A DNA stretch of 32,930 nucleotides, from contig JAHFSD010000014.1 in NCBI GenBank assembly GCA_023265925.1, forward strand, positions 1 to 32,930, written 5' to 3'. A program made the position numbers and the translations under genes. The notes under the pieces were generated by a model, which did not search any database, was not told the DNA's origin, and saw nothing but the letters and a program-made list of their open reading frames with translations. Below, in pieces: positions 6,520 to 32,154 of the stretch. The stretch's first letter is position 1; every line of letters starts with the position of its first letter. Source of the stretch: an archaeon. Lineage in GTDB: Archaea > Nanobdellota > Nanobdellia > Woesearchaeales > GW2011-AR9.

Positions 6520-6607
6520 GCCCCAGTGGCTTAGCCCGGTTAGAGCAGTCGGCTGTTAACAACAGAAAGATACCGACAGATCACCAGTTCAAATCTGGTC
6601 TGGGGCG
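6520..6607 (+). tRNA. tRNA-Asn(GTT), 13-nt intron at 37/38 (6559-6571)
   Basis: Acceptor gccccag/ctggggc; anticodon stem gtcgg/ccgac; spliced loop CTGTTAA; T-arm accag-ttcaaat-ctggt; TATA 'atttataaag' about 30 nt upstream. Confidence 0.88.
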
Positions 6608-14310: not shown

Positions 14311-14530
14311 GGGCCTGTGGTCTAGTGGCTATCTCTTTAAAAGAGACCATTGATGACGTCTCGTTGACGAAAACTCGTTAAATTCGTTGTTTTCAGAGTC
14401 GAGAAGAACCCCGGTTCGAAAGCAAGTTACACTATGCAAGTCGTACTCAGGTGGGATATTCCTCCCTGTGGTCGGAAATCCCACGACACTGGCAAAATAA
14501 TGTAACAGAACGAAAGTCCGGGCAGGCCCA
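14311..14530 (+). tRNA. tRNA-Val(GAC) with three introns: 14331-14352 (20/21, 22 nt), 14370-14398 (37/38, 29 nt), 14421-14516 (59/60, 96 nt)
   Basis: Spliced: GGGCCTG TG GTCTAGTGGCTATGAC G TCTCG TTGACGT CGAGA AGAAC CCCGG TTCGAAT CCGGG CAGGCCC A; each junction lies in a bulge-helix-bulge-like fold; TATA 'tttataaaa' about 32 nt upstream. Confidence 0.88.
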
Positions 14531-14556
14531 TTTATTCATAATTGGCGTAAGCCTGT

Positions 14557-14607
14557 GGGGTTGATAAGGGGCGAAGCCTCTTATGAGCTAGCCAACTTTA
14601 TCCTCAC
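14557..14607. repeat. Copy of a ~50-63-nt repeat (GGGGTTGATAAGGGGCGAAGCC..TTATGAGCTAGCCAACTTTATCCTCAC) downstream of tRNA-Val(GAC)
   Basis: Near-identical to the repeats at 27506 and 27569, which follow tRNA-Val(TAC). Confidence 0.85.
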
Positions 14608-27280: not shown

Positions 27281-27473
27281 GGGCCTGTGGTCTAGCGGCT
27301 ATCTTTGGGCGAAGAAGACTGCAGATGACAACTCCCTTACACGGAGTAGATCCCCGGTTCGAACGCAAGTTACACTAGGCAAGTCGTACTCAGGTGGGAT
27401 ATTCCTCCCTGTGGTCGGAAATCCCACGACACTGGCAAAATAATGTAACAGAACGAAAGTCCGGGCAGGCCCA
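27281..27473 (+). tRNA. tRNA-Val(TAC) with two introns: 27301-27324 (20/21, 24 nt) and 27364-27459 (59/60, 96 nt)
   Basis: Spliced: GGGCCTG TG GTCTAGCGGCTATGAC A ACTCC CTTACAC GGAGT AGATC CCCGG TTCGAAT CCGGG CAGGCCC A; TATA 'tttttaaag' about 30 nt upstream. Confidence 0.88.
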
Positions 27474-27479
27474 CTTTAC

Positions 27480-27612
27480 CACTTTATCCTCACGCGCAGC
27501 GCTCTGGGGTTGATAAGGGGCAAAGCCCATTATGAGCTAGCCAACTTTATCCTCGCGCGCAGCGCCTTGGGGTTGATAAGGGGCGAAGCCCATTATGGGC
27601 TAGCCAATTTTA
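27480..27612. repeat. Tandem ~63-nt repeats downstream of tRNA-Val(TAC) (full copy 27506-27568, partial copies either side)
   Basis: GGGGTTGATAAGGGGC(A/G)AAGCCCATTATG(A/G)GCTAGCCAA(C/T)TTTA...; internal hairpin gggc-gaa-gccc in the 14557 and 27569 copies. Confidence 0.88.
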
Positions 27613-27762
27613 CTACCTATTTCCTTTTGTTATTATATTTCCACCTTATTATGACAGAAATGACAATAGACTTTCTTTATCCCAGAAAAGAGGTACGCCG
27701 TAAACCGGTTACGGCAGCCGCTGCATTCAAAGTTTTTTACACCCATTTTTTAATCAGGCGTT

Positions 27763-30483: not shown

Positions 30484-30804
30484 TCACTGTTTCTTTAATT
30501 GGTCAGATTTGCCGCAGTAGGGGCAATGCAGACGATGTAAGACGCCGGCTTTACTTTGATCGGCGCGGAAGGCATAGTTGCAGCGCCGGCAGAGCAAGGT
30601 CACAAATTCTGCTGCAGGCAGAGCGGTAATGGTTTTGACCTTGGTCAACGGTTCGGGAACTTTGCGCTGCACTTCCCGGCTGCATTTTTCACAGAGCATC
30701 ATCGTTTTTCCATCCGGTTTGGGGTGGATGCGTACTTGGTCTAAAGGAACAGAATTGCGGCAACGCTCACAGGTTCTGGTTTTGCGGATGTCCATGCTGA
30801 CCAC
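30484..30804 (-). CDS. Multi-zinc-ribbon protein
   Basis: CxxC pairs: 'CERC', 'CEKC', 'CRRC', 'CPYC'; 106 aa. Confidence 0.7.
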   Translation of the reverse strand: MVSMDIRKTRTCERCRNSVPLDQVRIHPKPDGKTMMLCEKCSREVQRKVPEPLTKVKTITALPAAEFVTLLCRRCNYAFRADQSKAGVLHRLHCPYCGKSDQLKKQ

Positions 30805-30858
30805 CTATTTTTTGTCTCTATAAAGAAGGAAGAAGTATTTAAAGATATTGCTGGTGGA

Positions 30859-31056
30859 AGTAATACTTTAGCTTCCTGAAGTGAAGCTCTACCGTCTTCT
30901 CGGCAAGTAACCTATGCAAGTTACTCAGGTGGGGTACTCGCTCCGCTCGACCCCACGATAATGATAGTGGATGGGACAACCCCCCGTCTGCTTGCTACAG
31001 CACCCGAGGAGGCTCGACCTGAGGATGGTAGAGCTTCACAAAGCTAAAGTATTACT
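30859..31056 (+). ncRNA. Candidate structured ncRNA (or IR-bounded element) with long paired termini and a core shared with tRNA-Val T-loop introns
   Basis: gtaatactttagctt...aagctaaagtattac and gtgaagctctacc...ggtagagcttcac nested stems; 'tatttaaag' TATA at 30836-30844; core 'GCAAGTAACCTATGCAAGTTACTCAGGTGGG..CCCACGA'. Confidence 0.65.
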
Positions 31057-31071
31057 GGTGGAAAGAGAGAA

Positions 31072-31200
31072 TGGACCTGGGGAGACAGTCAAAGCTCCGC
31101 TGTTCGGTCAGTTCCTGCGGAACTTATTTGAACTCCCGACCCCCAGCTTAGAAGGCTTGCACAATACTTTGGTGCCCTATCCAGGCTAGGCTACAGGTCC
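31072..31200 (-). tRNA. tRNA-Arg(TCT) with two introns: 31157-31169 (29/30, 13 nt) and 31086-31126 (59/60, 41 nt)
   Basis: Minus-strand spliced: GGACCTG TA GCCTAGCCTGGATAGGGC A CCAGC CTTCTAA GCTGG GGGTC GGGAG TTCAAAT CTCCC CAGGTCC A; TATA 'tttataaag' about 30 nt upstream. Confidence 0.9.
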
Positions 31201-31236
31201 TTACCGTCAACAGAAAAGAATATTCTTTATAAACAT

Positions 31237-32154
31237 TTAGTTGATATCCCAAATCATCTCTAAACGCAGGACGCGATCGTCCGGCTGCAGGGTAATTTCT
31301 CCCGCCTGAGCCAGGTAATCCTCTTTTTTCACCACGACAATATAGGTTTCCTCATACTCAACATTGGTAAAAGAGACTTTTCCCCGGCGATTGGTGTAAT
31401 CTTTCCCTAACGGCAAGGCGGCCCCCGGCGCGTGATATTGTTTCTGAGTGAACAGCCAGACTTCCGCATTAGCTAATGGACTGCCCTGCTGATCGGTGAC
31501 TTGGACTTCCAGTTGCGCCAGCGGGGTTAACTCCACGGAAAGGGAAGTGAACTCGCCCTCTTCAGAAAAATCAACATTGTGCTTGGTCCGGAGCAATTCA
31601 TAGCCTTCCTTGGCCACGGTGACGATATACTCGCCATCAGGAAGATCCTGAAAGAGGGCATCGCCATGCTGGTCGGTCTGTTCTATCTGCAGAGGAACGG
31701 ACTTTCCTTCCGGGAACAGGGAGACCCGGGCCTGTTCTAAAGGCTCACCGGCAGCACGGACTGAAACGACATAATTGGTTTGCTTCTTCTCCAGGATGAT
31801 GGTAAGGGATTGTTCACCGTCGTCGCTGGCGCTGACCGTGATCGGACGGGAACTTTCATAGCCGGCTTTGCGCACCTGGATCTTGTTTTCCTGCCCTTCC
31901 AGAATCATGGTTTGGCTGCCTTTGCTGCCCCCATATTTGCTGGTCTCGCCCTTGAATTCGTTATTGAGATAGACGCGGGCTTCCGGGACCAGACTGCCGC
32001 GGTCATCCTTGACGGTAACAGTCAAGGTACTTACCTCGGCGGTGGCGACGCCGCTGCCGGTGATTTTTTCTTCCTGCTGGGAACAGGCGGTGAGAATAAG
32101 TGCCATGAGTATGAGCGCAATGGACAGCAGTCCCGGAAGCCAGCGTTTTTCCAT
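31237..32154 (-). CDS. Lipoprotein with repeated carboxypeptidase-regulatory/PEGA-like beta domains
   Basis: Lipobox 'LILTACSQQ'; 'TVTVKDDRGSLVPEARVYLNNEFKGET', 'VQVTDQQGSPLANAEVWLF'. Confidence 0.85.
   Translation of the reverse strand: MEKRWLPGLLSIALILMALILTACSQQEEKITGSGVATAEVSTLTVTVKDDRGSLVPEARVYLNNEFKGETSKYGGSKGSQTMILEGQENKIQVRKAGYESSRPITVSASDDGEQSLTIILEKKQTNYVVSVRAAGEPLEQARVSLFPEGKSVPLQIEQTDQHGDALFQDLPDGEYIVTVAKEGYELLRTKHNVDFSEEGEFTSLSVELTPLAQLEVQVTDQQGSPLANAEVWLFTQKQYHAPGAALPLGKDYTNRRGKVSFTNVEYEETYIVVVKKEDYLAQAGEITLQPDDRVLRLEMIWDIN

Follow-up and report, generated by a model that had tools for sequence, protein, structure and literature searches.

A probable promoter-targeting MITE carrying a fragment of a tRNA T-loop intron family in a woesearchaeal archaeon

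The stretch of archaeal DNA that we analyzed (the window, 32,930 nucleotides, which corresponds to contig C55 in a 57-contig genome assembly of 1.2 Mb) contains at positions 30860-31055 a MITE, a non-coding mobile DNA element, whose enclosing stems are its terminal inverted repeats. We consider it highly probable (about 93%) that this element is a non-autonomous, promoter-targeting MITE that carries, as a passenger, a fragment of a family of introns that interrupt the T-loop of tRNA genes.

The element and its repeat family

The initial annotation had described nested stems of 15 and 13 bp joining the ends of an element of about 198 nt. Both stems were located, and the element proper is 196 bp in length:

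30860-31055, plus strand: MITE, 196 bp, with ends GTAATACTTTAGCT and AGCTAAAGTATTAC; member of a repeat family in its own and related genomes
30852-30859, no strand: left 8-bp target site duplication TGGTGGAA, identical to 31056-31063
31056-31063, no strand: right 8-bp target site duplication TGGTGGAA, a perfect copy of the left one
30860-30874, plus strand: outer 15-bp arm of the left terminal inverted repeat, paired with 31041-31055; covaries across 16 MITE copies
31041-31055, plus strand: right terminal inverted repeat, outer arm; pairs with 30860-30874, with covariation in the 16 copies
30881-30893, plus strand: inner 13-bp arm on the left, paired with 31027-31039, with covariation in the 16 copies
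31027-31039, plus strand: right inner arm; pairs with 30881-30893, with covariation in the 16 copies
30903-30958, plus strand: captured T-loop-intron core, 56 nt, GCAAGTAACCTATGCAAGTTACTCAGGTGGGG...CCCCACGA (starting GCAAG), in place of a hairpin CCTCTCG...CGAGGG
30969-31055, plus strand: right part of the MITE, 97% identical to a core-free copy (G000:C5:21279-21365)

The terminal positions of this copy are complementary at 15 of 15, and no ORF of 80 codons or more lies within it. When the element was used to search its own genome for similarity, its outer part was found to recur on contigs C5, C3, C1, and C23 and as fragments, and the core (query positions 59-117) did not recur alongside it. 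Copies of the family start with GTA(A/T)T and finish in the reverse complement. Other copies are likewise flanked by 8-bp direct repeats (GCGAGTGG on C5, CAGGAATC on C1, and TATTTTTT on C23). Because the outer part is a repeat family flanked by 8-bp duplications, the nested stems are the inverted repeats of a MITE.

The genome harbors at least eight complete or partial copies, and further ones are present in four related genomes (G001, G009, G013, and G073). Taking inverted repeats that match at 12 or more of 15 positions and a duplication that matches at 7 or more of 8 as the conditions for inclusion, we recognized 47 distinct insertions in the genome and its relatives, in several genera. The duplication was perfect (8/8) in 36 of them, a fraction that is biased upward because the duplication was itself a selection criterion; however, similarity was what first revealed the window copy and many of the others. 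The base length of the family is about 165 bp, with a range of 77 to 419 bp.

The stretch is predicted to fold with an energy of -93 kcal/mol, as compared with -65.8 +/- 4.6 for shuffled sequences (z = -6.0). In an alignment of sixteen core-free copies of 164-169 bp, 97% of cells pair in the consensus fold, and double-change cells number 78 versus 26 after shuffling and 16 or fewer when the pairing partners were slid. The 13 interior pairs alone account for 28 such cells versus 7.5. Since the interior pairs covary too, conservation of the palindrome extends past the terminal repeats. Either the folded strand may matter for transposition, or a transcript may have a role. The second possibility would give the element a double nature, as transposon and as functional RNA, transcribed and folded with a secondary role such as stabilizing or regulating a neighboring transcript. 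The compensatory changes in helices beyond the terminal repeats are in keeping with such a role, as is the stable stem-loop folding known for MITE transcripts (PMC10969869), but the same pattern would arise if transposition depended on single-strand folding or on gene conversion from one arm to the other, and we regard a function for the RNA as unlikely, if the best of the alternatives. The initial annotation could not match the element to the RNase P, SRP, 5S, or C/D RNA consensus, and no Rfam family matches it: an Rfam scan yielded nothing credible at 30780-31260, and its sole match in the window at E values of up to 1 was a tRNA at 6520-6607.

A search for IS66 transposases and an examination of larger candidate transposons revealed no autonomous partner with the inverted repeats of the family. 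As a possible partner we considered IS66, which has GTAA ends and gives rise to 8-bp duplications. This agreement is insufficient, as IS66 transposases (PF03050) scored above the cut-off only in G021 and the ends of the element there do not match the inverted repeats of the MITE. A partial IS66 match that adjoins a MITE fragment on contig C80 of G013 is a mere fragment. Larger transposons bounded by the inverted repeats, considered near G009:C8, G002:C44, G006:C4, and G044:C38, dissolved into ordinary genes with no transposase seen. Two copies of the MITE, L131 (G000:C3) and L106 (G009:C30), have in common an extra double hairpin (CAAGAAATG...CATTTCTGTGC / GAAAACAAA...TTTGTTTTCGTGC), so that exchange of hairpin modules within the MITE has taken place repeatedly.

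The promoter register

The surroundings of the window copy include three features on the minus strand:

30836-30844, minus strand: TATA box TATTTAAAG (CTTTAAATA on the minus strand), kept upstream of the orthologous gene where the MITE is absent and in the register seen family-wide
30484-30804, minus strand: gene for a zinc-ribbon protein, 106 codons; the insertion site is at its promoter
31073-31200, minus strand: putative tRNA-Arg(TCT) gene, its T-loop interrupted by about 41 nt, recognized by reading the sequence

The TATA-like motif that the initial annotation had placed about 20 nt upstream of the element is thus real, its hexamer TTTAAA beginning 22 bp outside the MITE end. In two related genomes, G012 and G013, the motif is present at the orthologous position and the MITE is absent. 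Because the motif is kept at loci that lack the MITE, we conclude that it serves as promoter for the zinc-ribbon gene, which is divergent. The 3' end of the tRNA-Arg(TCT) gene on the other side lies 10 bp from the target duplication, and at the orthologous locus of G012 the neighbor is again a tRNA-Arg gene with a T-loop insertion. The insertion in the gene at 31073-31200 is without the core, the gene was missed by ARAGORN, and the central helix of its putative bulge-helix-bulge (BHB) pairs at only 3 of 4 positions.

The family as a whole has the same disposition. A TATA-like hexamer starts between -24 and -17 from one end of the MITE at 29 of the 47 insertions, against 4.6 expected (P = 4e-18); it is on the left at 18, on the right at 10, and on both sides at 1, and nearly all of the starts fall from -20 to -22. 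Read outward, the consensus consists of the 8-bp duplication, a BRE resembling NAAAYM (an A-rich stretch with 80% A at position 11 and 87% at position 12), TTTAWAWA at 15-22, and finally a codon resembling a start, which in most cases lies 44-46 nt out. The order of BRE and TATA points away from the MITE. Among the 19 insertions with an assignable ORF, the only such ORF leads away from the MITE at 14 and lies beyond the MITE at 3, and 2 have both kinds. With a leave-one-out matrix the register was detected at 34 of the 47 insertions, mostly those of GTAAT-ended copies, and the seven GTATTTG-ended copies were mostly without it.

Most simply, these data are read as targeting of insertion to the upstream edge of the BRE/TATA complex, either by bound TFB/TBP or by the sequence. 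It could instead be that insertions occur elsewhere and are lost, those just upstream of promoters being tolerated, so that the register reflects nothing but survival. These genomes are compact, with little neutral space, and an insertion upstream of the BRE would presumably be harmless. However, the register is 2-3 bp wide, with 32 of the 44 hexamer starts in the -24 to -17 interval falling at -20 or -22, and hexamers are nearly absent between -24 and -32. Survival bias alone does not explain so narrow a register, and we judge this account less probable still than a function for the MITE transcript.

The initial annotation had proposed a free-standing structured RNA gene with its own TATA box, from which the core of the T-loop introns would derive; despite the strong fold (z = -6.0), the interior covariation of the family, and a TATA spacing compatible with a start close to the left end of the element, this proposal is very improbable in the face of 8-bp duplications around dozens of scattered copies, TATA boxes that lie outside the right end as well as the left (10 and 18 insertions, with 1 at both), a BRE-TATA order directed away from the element, a TATA box also at loci without the element and serving the zinc-ribbon gene at this one, and the absence of the core from other copies in the same genome. 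What can be counted against the MITE explanation is that neither IS66 nor the larger candidates furnished an autonomous partner, that the 47 copies were selected in part by their duplications, that the GTATTTG-ended copies mostly fall outside the register, and that a TATA box can fire both ways and would put a plus-strand start near 30865, so that the MITE may be transcribed.

The captured core and the T-loop introns

The two introns in the window with which the element shares its core are

14421-14516, plus strand: T-loop intron with core, in the tRNA-Val gene at 14311-14529, parsed as an intron and matched by the covariance model
27364-27459, plus strand: T-loop intron with core, in the tRNA-Val gene at 27281-27472, parsed as an intron and matched by the covariance model

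The claim that the element and both Val introns have a core in common held up well, the matches being far beyond chance: in a genome search the core was 82-84% identical to the Val introns (E = 1e-4 to 3e-3) and 90% identical to an intron in an Asp tRNA (E = 1.2e-14). The motif ACTCAGGTGGG occurs exactly three times in the window, in the element and in each Val intron, and at one further site with one mismatch, as compared with 0.46 matches expected at up to one mismatch. Exact copies of the core motif were also found in public records titled Woesearchaeota, Nanoarchaeota, or "archaeon", and no exact match was found in viral contigs.

In the MITE, the core is a replacement. In a standard copy the sequence CTTCTCG is followed by the hairpin CCTCTCG...CGAGGG, which is what other, core-free copies in the genome have at the same place; in the window copy it is followed by GCAAGTAACC...CCCCACGA and then by the common right part. 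A copy in G001, from the same genus, has the identical junction CTTCTCG|GCAAGTAACC. In G009, MITEs contain two inverted cores at a different site, with the junction GCTCGACCT|GCAAG, and three of them (L075, L082, and L089) form a subfamily amplified at several loci. True T-loop introns of the same GTAACC...GTTAC variant occur in G009 and G017. MITEs that bear the core were found in only three genomes and at two different internal sites. The window core sits in a MITE, outside any tRNA, and is without the 3' half of the intron and the YGAA/AAAR-U splice motif. Thus, the window MITE cannot be spliced as a T-loop intron, and we ruled out that the element is itself a BHB tRNA intron.

To define the intron family, we parsed twenty introns of 82-143 nt by T-stem complementarity and built a covariance model from eight of them. 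The model produced about 130 matches in the GTDB family and places the introns in 26 of its 51 genomes. Matches in other families of the order were few and weak, and among 382 genomes sampled from the phylum, none outside the order was matched. Among 90 aligned matches, 93.5% of cells pair versus 72.9% after shuffling, and double-change cells number 300 versus 75, in an alignment that was fitted to the model and hence leans towards it. The introns form a strict BHB at tRNA position 59/60, with two 3-nt bulges and a 4-bp helix. In this arrangement the T-stem is followed by T54-R57 (TTCR), which pairs with YGAA at the 3' end of the intron, the bulges being ANN and NNU. NGAA is kept in 79 of 83 introns, and the pyrimidine covaries with R57 (40 A-T, 18 G-C, 3 G-T, and 1 A-C; P = 1.3e-11). 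The splicing endonuclease, which the initial annotation had listed among partners to look for, is encoded in the genome by an ORF of 220 aa (EndA; PF01974, E = 1.8e-29), and it would remove the introns. On the strength of these sequence features we take the T-loop introns to be a real family of the BHB type, with splicing predicted.

Other candidate structures did not survive. A resemblance or pairing between the 3' end of the intron and the exon segment before the T-stem had seemed likely by eye, but identity was as high in 149 of 500 shuffles, and pairing of the same segments as high in 445 and 362 of 500; HDV-like and group I-like topologies, considered by eye, were dropped after the BHB had been demonstrated. 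We also note that an intron with the core is present in the anticodon loop of a putative tRNA-Ala(TGC) at L044 (G001:C141) and L058 (G000:C44), and that very short T-loop introns of about 30-40 nt (L249, L192:2701-2747, and L247:91-133) are core-free, with only the BHB and a small hairpin retained. A repeat, GGGGTTGATAAGGGGCRAAGCC...TTATGRGCTAGCCAA, is located directly downstream of both tRNA-Val genes (about 14552-14605, 27505-27550, and 27569-27615).

Free copies of the core were seen at L006, L009, L040, L051, L073 (minus strand), L154, and L262, in each case between direct repeats of 16-23 bp. The repeats mostly correspond to the 3' end of a tRNA gene, relative to which the core is in antisense orientation; by reading of the sequence, the flanking gene is 5S rRNA at L154, and there is no RNA gene at L006. 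These copies resemble a mobile unit, about 66 bp in size, whose target duplications are long. The idea of a module moving between contexts stands in part: it is seen in tRNA-intron, intergenic, and transposon settings, and a free-standing RNA gene is not supported. Since the intron family is present in 26 of 51 genomes and core-bearing MITEs in only three, the transfer most simply ran from the intron family to the MITE.

The favored explanation, then, is one in which a transposase supplied in trans would cut at the GTAAT inverted repeats and, by way of an 8-bp staggered cut, insert the MITE directly next to the upstream side of the BRE in an active promoter, which at the window locus would be that of the zinc-ribbon gene on the minus strand. 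The long palindrome would be kept by selection on the MITE fold, with no signature of a separate RNA gene, and the intron-core fragment would have taken the place of an internal hairpin in an ancestral MITE, an event that probably predates the split between the two species of the genus. More specifically, and tentatively, at a little under even odds, we propose that an archaeal transposase docks on promoter-bound TFB/TBP (or on BRE-TATA) and so places the MITE at the upstream edge of the initiation complex, and that the mobile structured module of about 66 bp is a T-loop BHB intron when in a tRNA and otherwise a hitch-hiker of the MITE.

Relation to known systems and significance

MITEs are known from prokaryotes, including QMITE2 of Coxiella and, among the archaea, those of Sulfolobus and Haloquadratum (PMC10969869). 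Like them, the family described here is short, non-coding, and multi-copy, with terminal inverted repeats, a stem-loop fold, and a passenger core, and its 8-bp target duplications are short, as are those of QMITE2 (7-9 bp; PMC10969869). Unlike them, it lies at a fixed register immediately upstream of BRE/TATA promoters, has compensatory interior helices, and in some copies contains a captured tRNA-intron module.

Transposition of tRNA introns has been described in the Thermoproteales, where similar intron sequences are reported from many tRNAs at non-canonical positions with BHB splicing (PMC4033280). The T-loop family resembles them in each of these respects, occurring in many tRNAs at a non-canonical position with a BHB; it differs in its phylum, in its conserved and covarying internal core, in its T-loop 59/60 site, and in the occurrence of the core at the 3' ends of tRNA and 5S genes and in MITEs. 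In Caldiarchaeum, integration of a mobile element has been put forward as the origin of tRNA disruption (PMC3293823). Mobile DNA is tied to tRNA intron gain there as here, but the Caldiarchaeum element is 1.8 kb and codes for a recombinase, whereas our module is non-coding and about 66 bp. Structured introns of group I have also been reported from archaea (PMC6125680); unlike those, the T-loop introns have no Rfam group I match, are 82-143 nt in length, and have a strict BHB. In the open-access literature we found no earlier account of the MITE family, of promoter-register insertion in archaea, or of the T-loop intron family.

The closest parallel for the register comes from yeast. Ty1 and Ty3 are retrotransposons with an integrase that insert beside Pol III promoters through TFIIIB, a safe-haven strategy. 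The MITE family similarly inserts at a fixed place beside a TBP-containing promoter complex, perhaps under the guidance of TFB/TBP, but it is an archaeal DNA element and lies upstream of the promoters of protein genes.

If our interpretation is correct, promoter-adjacent safe-haven insertion, familiar from eukaryotic retrotransposons, exists in archaea too, and the MITE family would be a prokaryotic counterpart of the TFIIIB-guided Ty elements. The MITEs would then mark real BRE-TATA promoters genome-wide in uncultured DPANN archaea without recourse to transcript data. A strongly folded intergenic stretch with a TATA box nearby can, by the same token, be a promoter-targeting MITE and not an RNA gene. 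Finally, the T-loop family indicates that outside the Thermoproteales, too, structured copies of a single module have become tRNA introns, and with tRNA- and 5S-flanking copies and MITE copies as intermediates of intron gain, the spread of archaeal tRNA introns becomes directly testable.
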